A DNA stretch of 64,000 nt from Sulfurovum sp. XGS-02. Lineage in GTDB: Bacteria; Campylobacterota; Campylobacteria; Campylobacterales; Sulfurovaceae. Below, in pieces: positions 42,614-47,617 of the stretch (positions within the stretch are counted from its first letter, which is position 1; every line of letters starts with the position of its first letter). The notes beneath the pieces are model-generated. The model was not told the origin of the DNA. It worked only from the letters and a program-made list of their open reading frames with translations, and searched no databases. The translations under genes and the position numbers were made by a program. The stretch lies in the NCBI RefSeq assembly GCF_023213175.1, contig NZ_CP093312.1, positions 868,001 to 932,000 of the forward strand, in the 5' to 3' direction.

Positions 42614-43756
42614 TCAGTATGTCACTTTAAAACGCAGATAATAGCTGTTCTCAAGACTGCCAAACTCACTCTCATTATCTCCTCTATAAAGCATCGCACC
42701 CACCGATACGGAAGCATCATCACTGATACTGTAGGTGATGAGAGGGGAAATGAAACTGCTTTGGTCTTCCGGGCTATGGATCATACTCAGCGCACCGCTG
42801 TAGAGCAGGTTGAAGTCATAATAGGCAGAGGCTCCTAGGTAGTCAGAAGAGAGGTGACGGTTATAGCCTAGACTGCTTTTTTGGAAGTTCAGTATCTCAT
42901 CAACAGTATAGGTTTTGGTAGAGTGCAGCCATTCTGTCATGACGGTAAGCCCATTGACAAAGCCGTAATCCACCCCCAGTATGGTTTGATAAAATGATCT
43001 ATCTAAGAGTTTGTCTTTGTAGTATCCTCCTTCGCTCCGCCACTCTATACCGGTATCAAAAAGATTACCCTCTATCTCATAGGCGAACATCTGGGCATCA
43101 TTGCTCGAAAAAATATCCAGTGCGATATCGCCAATCTGGACATTTCCTTTGATCCTTCCTGCATATTTGTAACTGTTGTCCTCACGTTTTGCAACCACTC
43201 CCATTGCTTGACTCAGTGTTCCCAATGCATAAGTATAGGAGAGGGCAAAATTTCCGTAGATCTGGTCAGGTTCCAGGGCAAGAGGGTTTCTGGGGTTAAA
43301 GAGATCAGTCGGTGTCCATATCCGTCCAACACCCATAGTGATCTTCTGTAGACCAAAGATTACATGATGCTTTTCATCCGCATAACCGACAGAAAAACGG
43401 TGCAGCCGTCCAAATACTTCACCCTTGCCATAGTTCTTGGTATGGGTCTCTATGTCAAAAGGAGTATCTGCTTTGATAGAGCGAAAAAAACCATATTCAA
43501 AGCTCTCTATATAGGTTTTCCCGTAGTAGTTGTCTATATCTGCTATGATATTGGCAAACCAGTTTCCCTCTGTGATATTATCGGTCAGTCTCAGCCTGTT
43601 GTAGTTATAGAGTGTTCTCTCTTCCTCAGTGTAGGGTATCTTGGATATCGTATAGTTGGTGTTCTCTATGGTAAGGTCATGTTCTACGGCCATGATCGGC
43701 AGGGTCAAACAGAGTAGGGTGATATAGTTAACGATCTTCAACGACGACTCCGTCAT
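42614..43756 (-). CDS. Outer-membrane beta-barrel protein of the LolA-ABC operon
   Basis: 380 residues. A signal peptide (about 1-23, ending LPIMA) is followed by alternating beta strands with aromatic girdles (WFANIIADIDNYYG, FSVGYADEKHHVIFGLQ, FALSYTYALGTLSQAMG) and a C-terminal YLRFKVTY, the aromatic end expected for a BAM substrate. It resembles DUF1302/alginate-export-like barrels in style, but I cannot name a family. ATG 43756 overlaps the ATPase gene by 29 nt; TTG 43741 is an alternative start. As last gene of the operon it is likely the outer-membrane element of the exporter. Confidence 0.7.
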   Translation of the reverse strand: MTESSLKIVNYITLLCLTLPIMAVEHDLTIENTNYTISKIPYTEEERTLYNYNRLRLTDNITEGNWFANIIADIDNYYGKTYIESFEYGFFRSIKADTPFDIETHTKNYGKGEVFGRLHRFSVGYADEKHHVIFGLQKITMGVGRIWTPTDLFNPRNPLALEPDQIYGNFALSYTYALGTLSQAMGVVAKREDNSYKYAGRIKGNVQIGDIALDIFSSNDAQMFAYEIEGNLFDTGIEWRSEGGYYKDKLLDRSFYQTILGVDYGFVNGLTVMTEWLHSTKTYTVDEILNFQKSSLGYNRHLSSDYLGASAYYDFNLLYSGALSMIHSPEDQSSFISPLITYSISDDASVSVGAMLYRGDNESEFGSLENSYYLRFKVTY

Positions 43757-44399
43757 CTAAAACAATGATACGCTTGGACTGTTCAAGCACATATTTGTCA
43801 TGGGAAGCAAAAATGACTGTTACGTGCTCTTTTTCATTGAGTGTGCGCAGCATATTCATCAGGCGCGCACTGTTCTTCGAATCGAGGTTTGCTGTGGGCT
43901 CATCGGCGAGTATCAGTTTGGGGCGTGAAGCCACTGCTCGTGCTACAGCCACACGCTGTTGCTGGCCTCCACTGATCTCACCGGGAAGTTTATCGAGGAG
44001 GTCCGCTATCTGCAAGATCTCAGCCAACTCCGTAGTACGTGCATCTATCTCTTTTTGATCGAACTTGAGCAGTTTCATGATGAACCCTATGTTTTCTCTG
44101 ACATTAAGTACATGTATGAGATTGTAGGCCTGGAAGATAAAACCGATATCATGCAGTCTGAGCTTTGCCATTTTCTCTTCACTGTAAGCCGATATCTCTT
44201 CTCCTTCAAAAAAGATCTCTCCGCTTGTTGCAGAGTCCAGTCCACCTATAATATTCAAAAGAGTGGTCTTGCCTGAACCTGACTCACCGCTCAGTGTAGT
44301 GAACTCACCTTTTTCAAAAGTAAGGTTGATATCGGTAAGGGCTCTGACCTCTTTAGGAGTATCAGGGTAGAATGTTTTGTAGACATGGCTGAGTTTCAT
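43728..44399 (-). CDS. LolD-type ABC transporter ATP-binding protein
   Basis: 223 residues. Walker A SGESGSGKTTLL (about 38-49), Q-loop AYNLI, signature EISGGQQQRVAVARA, Walker B LILADEPTANLD and H-loop FASHDK are all present. The size and sequence fit the LolD/MacB/FtsE ATPase group that powers FtsX-type permeases. It overlaps the upstream permease by 4 nt. Confidence 0.94.
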   Translation of the reverse strand: MKLSHVYKTFYPDTPKEVRALTDINLTFEKGEFTTLSGESGSGKTTLLNIIGGLDSATSGEIFFEGEEISAYSEEKMAKLRLHDIGFIFQAYNLIHVLNVRENIGFIMKLLKFDQKEIDARTTELAEILQIADLLDKLPGEISGGQQQRVAVARAVASRPKLILADEPTANLDSKNSARLMNMLRTLNEKEHVTVIFASHDKYVLEQSKRIIVLDDGVVVEDR

Positions 44400-45625
44400 A
44401 ACATTTTTCCTTGTATGACTTGTATAGGTTTGATTTTCTTCAGTTTTCGCAGAGGCCAGATCACTGAGAGCAGGGTAGCAAAAAGTACAGCAAAGAATGC
44501 TTGAAAGAAATAGTAAAGGTGCATATTGGCATACATGACTGCACTGTATCCATAAAGTTCAAGACCTGCTTCAAATGCACGCATATCCACCCCAGAAGTC
44601 GACATATAGAGCAGGAAGATCCACCCACCCAATGCCCCTGCGATATAACCGATCAGACCGAGAAAAGAAGCTTCCATGATGATCTGGTTTCTGACGGTTC
44701 TGTAAGGTGTCCCTATGGCAAGCATAATACTGAACTCACGCATCCGTTCCAGAACAGAGACAAGCATCACACCAAAAATTCCCAGTGCAGCGACGACAAA
44801 GACAATGGCATAAGAGGCCAGATTGAAGATATTCATCCACTCCTGCATCTGTATGAGCAGTGGATAAAGTTCATCCCAGCGAAGTACATCTATAGTTGGA
44901 AAACGTTTTTGCAGCTCTTTTTGTGCGGTAGATATACGCTCAGCATCTTTCACACGCAATGCTATTTGGGTAGCACTTTGCTGCACATTTAGAAATGTAG
45001 ACATCTTTTCCATAGAGACCAATACGGCATGGTCATCGATGGTAGGGTTACCTGTTTTGAGAATACCGCTGATGCGAAAAGAGATAGCATTGATCTCACC
45101 TGTCGCATCCTGGGCCGTAAAGATCACACGGCTTCCTATCTTCAGGTTGAGTTTCTTAGCCAGTGCCGCACCTATCAATGCCTTTTGAGCATTTTCACCA
45201 AAACTGTACTCTCCTTGGGTGATAAAGGCATCAAGCCCTCCAAAATTCTGTTCATTTTTCAGAGAGATGCCTTTGAGGACGGCTCCAAGAGATTTGTGGG
45301 CAGTAGCAATGAGCCCCTCTTTTTCCAAACGTACGGAGTAAGCTTCTATCGCTTCGATCTTGGAAAAAGCCTCGATATAGTTTGAAATGGGAGTGAGTCG
45401 GTAATCCAGCGTTTTGTTCAATCTATACTTTTTGTTGTAGAGAGATATCTCTCCTGAGTCACTGCGGATGGTGGTGTTGATCAGATGGAGGATCATGCCA
45501 TCATAGAGCCCCTGCAGCCCAAGCAGACCAGTAAGACTCAGTGCGATCATCATGATCACCATCAAAGAGCGGGTTTTACGTCTCCAGATACTCAGCCAGG
45601 CAAGATGTCGAGCTATCTTATACAT
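44396..45625 (-). CDS. FtsX/LolC-type ABC permease (second)
   Basis: 409 residues. One helix near the N-terminus (about 18-42), a large periplasmic domain (about 45-275) and three C-terminal helices (about 280-305, 325-345 and 372-395) match the FtsX/LolC/E fold (MacB-PCD plus FtsX domains). The C-terminal RTVRNQIIMEASFLGLIGYIAG block carries the coupling helix. It overlaps both neighbours (8 nt upstream, 4 nt downstream). Confidence 0.9.
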   Translation of the reverse strand: MYKIARHLAWLSIWRRKTRSLMVIMMIALSLTGLLGLQGLYDGMILHLINTTIRSDSGEISLYNKKYRLNKTLDYRLTPISNYIEAFSKIEAIEAYSVRLEKEGLIATAHKSLGAVLKGISLKNEQNFGGLDAFITQGEYSFGENAQKALIGAALAKKLNLKIGSRVIFTAQDATGEINAISFRISGILKTGNPTIDDHAVLVSMEKMSTFLNVQQSATQIALRVKDAERISTAQKELQKRFPTIDVLRWDELYPLLIQMQEWMNIFNLASYAIVFVVAALGIFGVMLVSVLERMREFSIMLAIGTPYRTVRNQIIMEASFLGLIGYIAGALGGWIFLLYMSTSGVDMRAFEAGLELYGYSAVMYANMHLYYFFQAFFAVLFATLLSVIWPLRKLKKIKPIQVIQGKML

Positions 45626-46838
45626 ATCGCATCGCCTCCATTGCGGTAAGTTTATTGACTTTGAAGATCGGATAGATAATGGCTGCGAGATTGAGTATAA
45701 AGATCGTCAGTGCATTCCATGTAATGGTAAAAAGATCAAAGTTCATAGGTATTTCATCACTGACGACGCCATACTCTTTATAAGTCTCAGCGATACCTGA
45801 TATGACAATAGGATTGAGTTCAAAGTAGTAGGAGATGAAAGCACCAACGATGGTACCCAGGATGATACTGATCGTAGCAAGCATCAGGATTTCAATAAAA
45901 AGCATGCCAAAGATATCTTTGGAGGTCAATCCTAAAGCTCTTAGAAGTCCTATCTCCCGAGCACGTGTATAGATACTGACATAGGAAAATATCATGATCA
46001 CAAAAAATATCACTAGAAAAAAGATGGAGATGGAGATATAGCCAAATATAGAATCCACCAACATTGCTTGTACCAGTGCGGTAAGAAGTGTTTTCCAGTT
46101 GACCGCTTCATATCCGGCAGGAAGTACGTTTTGCAGATGTATGGTTATTTTATCTATCTTATCATTGTCATAGAAGTCAAGGGTAAAATAACTGGCTATA
46201 TTTTCACTCATCATCACGCTGTCCAGATAGAATTTGTTGACAAAGGCCGACTGGGAATCAAATTCGAAAAGACCTGTTTTGAAGATCCCTTTCACGGTAA
46301 AAAGATCGGCAGCGATGGAGTAGTCGACGGAAGAACCTACCATAGCTATTTCACTGCCTACATCCACATTAAGACGTTCGGATAGTTCAGATCCGATGTA
46401 GATGGCATTGGTATCATGATCCTCGAGATAAGCACCTTTGATAAGAGAATCGTGCAGTTTACTCAGCGTTTTTTCCCGGGAAGGAATGATCCCTCCGACC
46501 AAACTTCCTATGGTCTTTACCTCTCCTGAGAGCAGAGCATAGGTTTCAAATCTTGGGCTATAGAGTCTGATGGAAGGGTCATTTTTGAGAATAGTATCAA
46601 TGTGATCTGCATCTTCTATGAGGTGATCGTAGCCCCCTTCATCTCTATACCCATCAAGGTTCACATGTGCATACCCCGTATAGATCTCCACAGAACTTTT
46701 GATGATCTGATTATGGGAACCATCCATCAGTGCAACATAGCTTATGAAAAGAATAGTGCTGAAGGTGCTCAAAAGCAGGGTGGTAATGCTTCTACCCTTG
46801 GACTTTATAATATTTCTAAAAGCGAGTGAGAAAAGCAT
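45618..46838 (-). CDS. FtsX/LolC-type ABC permease (first)
   Basis: 406 residues with the same layout: helix about 15-40, periplasmic domain, then three C-terminal helices (SIFGYISISIFFLVIFFVIMI; LFIEILMLATISIILGTIVG; FTITWNALTIFILNLAAI). IYTRAREIGLLRALGLTS is the conserved FtsX loop. Two unlike permease genes with one ATPase resemble LolC plus LolE plus LolD, or a MacB-like half transporter. It starts 6 nt after the LolA-like gene and overlaps the next permease by 8 nt. Confidence 0.9.
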   Translation of the reverse strand: MLFSLAFRNIIKSKGRSITTLLLSTFSTILFISYVALMDGSHNQIIKSSVEIYTGYAHVNLDGYRDEGGYDHLIEDADHIDTILKNDPSIRLYSPRFETYALLSGEVKTIGSLVGGIIPSREKTLSKLHDSLIKGAYLEDHDTNAIYIGSELSERLNVDVGSEIAMVGSSVDYSIAADLFTVKGIFKTGLFEFDSQSAFVNKFYLDSVMMSENIASYFTLDFYDNDKIDKITIHLQNVLPAGYEAVNWKTLLTALVQAMLVDSIFGYISISIFFLVIFFVIMIFSYVSIYTRAREIGLLRALGLTSKDIFGMLFIEILMLATISIILGTIVGAFISYYFELNPIVISGIAETYKEYGVVSDEIPMNFDLFTITWNALTIFILNLAAIIYPIFKVNKLTAMEAMRYV

Positions 46839-46844
46839 TCATCA

Positions 46845-47576
46845 TTACCTTGAATAGCGCTTTAAAGCCTGTTTTGTAAAATAAGAAGGATCTATTTTGG
46901 TATCAAAATTGACCTTCTCAAAGATCACTTTCGTACGGTTTTTCTTTTTGTCCGGATCCAGAGGTTGAAGCTCCATGACCATCGGGATTGTATGTGAACC
47001 ATGCTGTTCTATTTTTGAGAAGGTCATCACCCTTACTTTTTGCATCATATCATCATAAAATATCTCTTTGATAGGAACAGCATCTTTTAGGTCGACATCA
47101 ATGACGATCTTTCCCCAAACCACAGCGGCATTGGGTCTAGGGATCAGTTCCAATGTAGCAGAGTCTCCTCTTTGGAAGAGTATAGAAGCATGGTAGTCTT
47201 CTTCCAAAGAGCTTTCTTTTACCATATCATCATTGGTAAAATCGCTTCCCATCCAGCTTTGTAGCATCATGGAAGGTGGTATCTTTATAGTACGTTCGAT
47301 TTTGGGGATATACTGCCACATTTGATTGTCGATCTTTAAAAAGGTGATTCCTTTGTCCTTTTTAGGGTAGAGGATCTTGATAAAACTCTTGTCGTTCCCC
47401 TCGGACCAGCTTTCTATCTTGACCGTACGTTTACCCCGCTTAGAGGTGACTATCATATTCATGGTGGAGTACATGTAGTCACCGCGCAGGTTCTTTTCAA
47501 GTTTTTTGATGATGGCTTGGGCTTCGTCAGCTAAGAGAATATTGGAAAGAAAAAGTAAAGAGAGTATCCATTTCAT
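46845..47576 (-). CDS. LolA-like outer-membrane lipoprotein-sorting protein
   Basis: 243 residues with a Sec signal peptide (about 1-16, ending LLA-DEA). The mature protein has the PF17131-type LolA-like fold: MVTSKRGKRTVKIESWSEG, IKILYPKKDKGITFLKI, MWQYIPKIERTIKIPPSMM, GSDFTNDDMVKESSL and a late VMELQPLDPDKKKNRT. Such proteins are periplasmic carriers with a hydrophobic cavity and are usually encoded next to RND or ABC exporters. It starts a five-gene operon, has AAGGGG 6 nt ahead, and its own extended -10 promoter. Confidence 0.85.
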   Translation of the reverse strand: MKWILSLLFLSNILLADEAQAIIKKLEKNLRGDYMYSTMNMIVTSKRGKRTVKIESWSEGNDKSFIKILYPKKDKGITFLKIDNQMWQYIPKIERTIKIPPSMMLQSWMGSDFTNDDMVKESSLEEDYHASILFQRGDSATLELIPRPNAAVVWGKIVIDVDLKDAVPIKEIFYDDMMQKVRVMTFSKIEQHGSHTIPMVMELQPLDPDKKKNRTKVIFEKVNFDTKIDPSYFTKQALKRYSR

Positions 47577-47593
47577 ATAAACCCCTTTTTTGT

Positions 47594-47602
47594 ATTATAA
47601 CA
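47594..47602 (-). promoter_or_regulatory. Extended -10 promoter of the LolA-ABC-barrel operon
   Basis: On the minus strand TG-n-TATAAT spans 47602-47594. The transcription start would be near 47587, giving a very short leader of about 11 nt before ATG 47576, which still holds AAGGGG. It lies in the 41-nt gap after the MFS gene. Confidence 0.55.
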
Positions 47603-47617
47603 AAATTGTAAAGAGGT

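Follow-up and report, generated by a model that had tools for sequence, protein, structure and literature searches.

How lipids and other hydrophobic compounds pass over the periplasm and out via the outer membrane has long been an open question. Several described systems come close to a five-gene operon that we analyzed in Sulfurovum sp. XGS-02 (Campylobacterota), within a 64,000-nucleotide stretch of contig NZ_CP093312.1 (positions 868,001 to 932,000 of the forward strand, hereafter the window). The operon encodes a LolA-like periplasmic carrier, two unlike FtsX-type permeases (permA and permB), an ATP-binding cassette (ABC) ATPase and a predicted outer-membrane beta-barrel (Table 1). The LolABCDE pathway resembles it in joining two unlike permeases to an ABC ATPase, apparently in a complex of the same LolCDE class, and in its LolA-fold carrier. 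However, the operon carrier comes from another Pfam family, neither of its permeases appears to have the Hook, and it holds no lipoprotein, a predicted 18-strand barrel standing as fifth gene where LolABCDE has LolB. It is also accessory and patchily distributed, and the canonical genes lie apart from it in the source genome. MacAB-TolC likewise relies on a MacB-class permease and ATPase and exports over both membranes, but MacB is one polypeptide, and the operon has a shuttle carrier and a barrel in place of any MacA adaptor or TolC-like gene.

Closer in composition are cassettes that combine an MMPL/RND pump, a LolA-like protein and a DUF1302 barrel, such as AmeABCD of Castellaniella defragrans (PMC6394551), where an inner-membrane engine, a LolA-fold periplasmic protein and a barrel also share one operon. 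Deletion of ameABCD lowers monoterpene tolerance (PMC6394551), DUF1302/DUF1329 genes of Pseudomonas putida are required for Tween 20 metabolism (PMC10866462), and operons of Prevotella and Porphyromonas pairing MMPL with lipoprotein-sorting proteins rise strongly under iron limitation (PMC10434189). The Sulfurovum operon has a carrier of the same PF17131/DUF1329 kind and predicted fold. It differs in its engine, a two-permease ABC transporter instead of a proton-driven RND pump, in having no counterpart of the extra periplasmic protein AmeC of the Ame cassette, and in a barrel whose match to DUF1302 is below detection. The nearest published proposal is the BBJ23-BBJ29 cluster of Borrelia (PMC13078400), which also unites a LolA-like protein, a type VII ABC transporter and an outer-membrane barrel, and for which a non-polar ligand was proposed; its barrel, however, is Omp85/TamA-like, it has one homodimeric permease and two additional chaperones, and it is reported from Borrelia only. 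The nearest solved carrier structure is LolA3 of Porphyromonas gingivalis (9tp6), a protein examined alone in a paper that did not establish its operon or role (PMC13103446); this protein and LolA3 of Flavobacterium johnsoniae have been treated as LolA paralogues for which no role was found (PMC13103446, PMC11885536).

Because its carrier family, its apparently missing Hook and its lack of LolB set the operon apart, we do not class it as a Lol system and place it among export cassettes built from a LolA-fold carrier and a barrel. We propose that it probably encodes a complete ABC-powered trans-envelope export route in one unit, with a lipid or lipophilic compound a likelier substrate than a lipoprotein. 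As a unit the five-gene system seems previously undescribed; we found no description of it in the literature, which is weak evidence as the search covered open-access papers only.

The five genes are conserved and inherited together

Presence and absence were scored across 298 Campylobacterota genomes of at least 90% completeness (carrier above 300 bits, permA at E <1e-40). Carrier, permA and barrel co-occur in an identical set of 15 genomes and in no others, one barrel match (G128, E 1e-4) being discounted; the system is absent from about 95% of the phylum, and barrel matches were found in 19 of 100 genomes of the source genome's family. It follows from this identical distribution that the system is accessory and patchy, and is gained or lost as a unit. 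The order carrier-permA-permB-ATPase-barrel is kept in Campylobacterota loci wherever contig ends do not interrupt it, with three exceptions. The carrier lies on the same contig at a distance of about 20 kb in L041 and about 18 kb in L141, and additional permease genes are present in the operon in L140, the latter two loci being among the 15 genomes; L046 holds a barrel fragment only. Since gene order and presence/absence are shared, the barrel is conserved beside the ABC genes, a linkage whose absence had been named in advance as speaking against a distinct system. Two loci show further variation: in L140:2254-9735 (G157) the extra genes are of the FtsX type and the ATPase lies between two of them, and in L045:6626-7588 (G007) the barrel, unchanged in its operon position, is shortened to 320 aa by deletions near loops L2 and L7.

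Outside Campylobacterota, named genomes were scanned using an alignment of carriers headed by the one from Persicobacter; this gave 80 loci, 64 of which had enough downstream sequence to be evaluated. All five genes are present in 61 of these 64 (more than one permA-type open reading frame (ORF) in seven of the 61, and a changed order in L060). Since the loci were chosen by their carrier only, a sample biased to the neighborhood of the query, the other four genes constitute independent evidence. The scan reached Bacteroidota, Chlorobiota, Calditrichota, Gemmatimonadota, Zixibacteria and Pseudomonadota (Photobacterium and a Thalassovita metagenome-assembled genome), and the set was found separately in Vibrio campbellii (L047) and Persicobacter (L048), so that the same gene order is seen in at least seven phyla. 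Because this order recurs in related genomes and in other phyla, the operon is more than a chance arrangement. Campylobacterota barrels and those of other phyla are homologous (hhalign 99.9%, E 1.8e-34). In a permease tree, permA and permB form two clades, each spanning phyla and with identical branching among Campylobacterota, from which we conclude that the two have traveled together; LolC, LolE, the source genome's own LolF and MacB fall outside both clades, on long outgroup branches. Together, gene order across phyla and identical presence/absence in 298 genomes support the claim of a first-pass annotation, made from the window's letters alone, that the five genes work as one system. That annotation had not seen the widespread occurrence, the TetR linkage outside the phylum or the MMPL-driven parallels reported here.

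A diverged second subfamily occurs on Persicobacter plasmids (L049:1609-6681; L051), with the order barrel-ATPase-FtsX-FtsX-LolA-like and the barrel motif GLQKIDFGSSSILRPMQWFN. A tblastn search of plasmids with the barrel gave no match.

Beyond the phylum, TetR_N proteins account for 56 of the 66 same-strand genes that precede the carrier, often within a few bases, a linkage that fits inducible efflux. No other consistent partner that might hint at the substrate was apparent among the neighboring genes, which were read by eye, downstream genes not being profiled. Seven of the upstream proteins in the TetR position (alignment A5) also match an EF-hand profile (best E 5e-7), which is odd for a TetR regulator.

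The operon is distinct from housekeeping Lol and Mac genes

The source genome, a single contig of 2.19 Mb, has a canonical PF03548 LolA at 1520508 and a lolC/F-type permease gene directly behind secA (L007). As these canonical genes lie elsewhere, the window does not hold the only lolA/lolCDE genes of the genome, and the operon genes are not its housekeeping Lol genes, a separation that had been named in advance as support for a distinct system. A separate MacA/MacB-type set (macA/macB, L008) is also found elsewhere, and the window carrier is the only PF17131 protein of the genome.

Profiles and predicted folds of the five parts

The carrier matches PF17131 (LolA_like, 155 bits) and not PF03548. 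Its model (predicted local distance difference test, pLDDT, 85.5) has a half-barrel fold, with 9tp6 as best match (Z 23.7, E 9e-11), followed closely by the DUF1329 protein 4z48 (Z 23.4); canonical LolA scores about 12. In its predicted fold, the carrier thus appears to resemble P. gingivalis LolA3 and DUF1329 more closely than LolA. Vibrio parahaemolyticus 3BK5 was rejected as a structure of the operon's carrier, as it scores only 46 bits to the V. campbellii copy.

Both permeases contain an FtsX domain, and Pfam finds MacB_PCD in permB only. Their best NCBIfam profile is lolCE (102 and 89 bits against a cut-off of 362), and the ATPase, an ABC_tran protein, falls in the LolD/FtsE class (LolD profile, 197.6 bits against 307.75), all of these scores lying far under the equivalog cut-offs. 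The permeases align with LolF/LolE structures over most of their length. When aligned with Escherichia coli LolC, permA and permB of the window, Vibrio and Persicobacter all lack about six columns of the Hook loop around PSASQFTPMGRIPSQRLF, a loop that the source genome's own LolF retains; from these alignments the LolC Hook, which docks LolA, appears to be missing from both permeases. A LolCDE-class engine extracting from the inner membrane is a likely first step, and the docking of the larger carrier must differ since the Hook is shortened. PADLOC gave only generic ATPase/LolE-like matches, and a defense-system reading was dismissed on this ground.

The window barrel belongs to no Pfam or NCBIfam family, and PHROGs and PDB sequences gave nothing usable. 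Its model, built from a 17-sequence alignment (pLDDT 85.4, predicted template modeling score 0.77), has 18 strands connected alternately by short turns and long loops. It matches OprD, Occ channels and AlgE at Z 21-23 (OprD 23.1, AlgE 21.5) over about 290 residues, with a root-mean-square deviation of 3.2-4.0 and 9-14% identity; the shared 18-strand monomer-type architecture is a similarity of fold only. Conservation is highest within the long loop that links strands 5 and 6, where the motif is the signature of Table 1 here and GRQRINWGxNxVWNPNDIFN elsewhere. In porins, L3 folds into the pore, and by analogy the same may hold for this loop. The model suggests an outer-membrane passage rather than a LolB-like acceptor. 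Profiles and model together bear out the identities first given to the parts: a LolA-like carrier, two unlike FtsX-type permeases, a LolD-type ATPase and a barrel.

Carrier and barrel seem to occur with other engines

Related arrangements exist in which a similar pair stands beside another engine. Two Campylobacterota relatives (L138:2155-6607 and L139:3339-7748) encode MMPL pumps alongside DUF1302 barrels; in L138 a PF17131 carrier stands between pump and barrel. Likewise, Prevotella has an MMPL-PF17131-DUF1302 operon. A further relative in the phylum (L137:3250-8444) combines a sigma-54 response regulator, an ATPase, one FtsX permease, a PF17131 carrier and a possible barrel of 368 aa with weak similarity to the window barrel (hhalign 60%). 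From L138, L137 and the Prevotella operon, the carrier-barrel pair seems to have been combined with different engines.

A proposed export route and its alternatives

Parts, linkage, co-inheritance, predicted folds, TetR linkage outside the phylum and Hook absence were computed; beyond them, we infer assembly, direction, carrier-to-barrel hand-over and substrate class. In the mechanism that we propose, permA, permB and the ATPase would assemble into a heteromeric ABC complex of type VII (LolCDE class) and draw a hydrophobic or amphipathic substrate from the inner membrane. The PF17131 carrier would ferry this substrate over the periplasm within its half-barrel cavity and deliver it to the 18-strand OprD/AlgE-like channel, into or through the outer membrane, with the conserved loop L3 controlling passage. 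The system would be an ABC-powered counterpart of the MMPL/RND-LolA-like-DUF1302 routes. A lipid or toxic lipophilic small molecule is the more likely cargo, rather than a lipoprotein, because a predicted channel, not a lipoprotein of the LolB type, stands at the exit.

Several points weigh against this proposal. The case for an exporter is built from sequence and predicted folds, and both substrate class and direction are proposals made on that basis. The conserved residues of the barrel are largely polar or charged and do not obviously form a lipid path. The two functional precedents (ameABCD and the P. putida DUF1302/DUF1329 genes) are RND-driven and their barrels only distantly related: DUF1302 gives weak, sub-threshold matches in 12 of 60 operon barrels (best E 2e-5) and none in the window barrel, and hhalign of the barrel family gives 95% to a Prevotella DUF1302 protein and 5% to that of L138, so that operon and DUF1302 barrels are possibly distant relatives. 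The regulatory argument is borrowed from other phyla, as no TetR gene lies near the window operon and the four of the source genome are all elsewhere.

The first-pass annotation had read the operon as a lipid or lipoprotein route across the envelope with a barrel in place of LolB. The single system of five genes is supported, while lipoprotein cargo is disfavored by the apparently missing Hook, the low similarity of the carrier model to LolA and the channel-type barrel. A second, specialized Lol pathway, with the barrel taking over from LolB to insert certain lipoproteins into the outer membrane or set them on it, would account for permeases that match LolF/LolE over most of their length, a LolD-class ATPase and a carrier with a LolA/LolB-like half-barrel fold, and the Borrelia cluster was interpreted thus by its authors (PMC13078400). 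We nonetheless consider such a pathway unlikely, given the shortened Hook loop in both permeases, a carrier from PF17131 and not PF03548, a barrel predicted to be a pore and an absence from most of the phylum. TetR linkage would also be unusual for lipoprotein sorting, the related P. gingivalis LolA3 hardly binds LolB (PMC13103446), and deletion of lolA3 in F. johnsoniae affected neither gliding nor amylase secretion (PMC11885536).

An uptake system, or a retrograde lipid system running in the same direction as Mla, is less probable still; here the barrel would import an amphipathic substrate and the carrier pass it to the ABC complex. Most barrels of the OprD family serve in uptake, and this speaks for import. 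The need of P. putida for its DUF1302/DUF1329 pair during growth on Tween 20 does so too (PMC10866462). However, the operon encodes no importer-type periplasmic binding protein, and TetR repressors suit export. Permeases and ATPase are also of type VII, and the known representatives of this class (LolCDE, MacB, FtsEX) either work outward from the inner membrane or serve to transmit force. That the barrel is an ordinary porin co-transcribed by chance, leaving only carrier and ABC proteins to work together, appears very improbable. Its porin fold and its being the most divergent of the five proteins would agree with this, but it follows the other genes through the same 15 genomes and through 61 of the 64 loci in other phyla, the diverged plasmid subfamily (L049) keeps all five parts in another order with the barrel first, and the MMPL versions carry a barrel too.

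If the export route holds, the operon may tentatively be seen as one form of an undescribed exporter class with members in at least seven phyla. An ABC engine would there pass substrate on to a soluble shuttle, and the shuttle to a gated channel in the outer membrane, with no continuous tripartite conduit. The shuttle-barrel pair would be served by different engines (two-permease ABC, single-permease ABC or MMPL), a modular alternative to TolC-type efflux. With engine, shuttle and exit channel encoded and inherited together, carrier-to-barrel hand-over is directly testable in tractable hosts (Vibrio, Flammeovirga, Campylobacterota). In most other phyla, the linkage to TetR points to inducible efflux, which may matter for tolerance to lipophilic compounds.

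Operon layout and promoter

The five minus-strand ORFs lie exactly where they had first been placed and with the same spacing: a 6-nt gap between carrier and permA, then overlaps of 8 nt (permA/permB), 4 nt (permB/ATPase) and 29 nt (ATPase/barrel).

Table 1. Coordinates of the operon features in the window
Feature	Position	Strand	Description
LolA-like periplasmic carrier	46845..47576	-	243 aa, PF17131, N-terminal hydrophobic signal segment, no lipobox Cys
Permease A (permA)	45618..46838	-	406 aa, FtsX/LolCE-type, first of two unlike subunits, apparently no LolC-type Hook
Permease B (permB)	44396..45625	-	409 aa, FtsX/LolE-type with MacB_PCD, second subunit, apparently no Hook
ABC ATPase	43728..44399	-	223 aa, LolD/FtsE/MacB class
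Outer-membrane beta-barrel	42614..43756	-	380 aa, modeled with 18 strands, resembles OprD/Occ/AlgE
Predicted long loop L3 of the barrel (residues 138-168, linking strands 5 and 6)	43253..43345	-	Signature GVGRIWTPTDLFNPxNPLALEPD; strand borders from model
Putative extended -10 promoter element TGTTATAAT	47595..47603	-	17 nt ahead of the lolA-like start codon

Upstream, on the same strand and 41 bp away, lies a YbfB-type MFS_4 transporter gene (48793-47618, minus strand), and read-through from it into the operon is possible. It is probably a local neighbor, because no MFS homologue was found in related loci. The extended -10 element proposed as the operon's own promoter is present in the sequence. 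A general promoter scan gave no excess over shuffles (14 against 15.5), but the motif TGNTATAAT is rare, with 6 occurrences in 128 kb (both strands), and four related loci (L031, L033, L034 and L039) have it in a similar position, 17-24 nt ahead of the ATG. In L031 and L033, the upstream gene was read by eye as a Crp/Fnr-type regulator.

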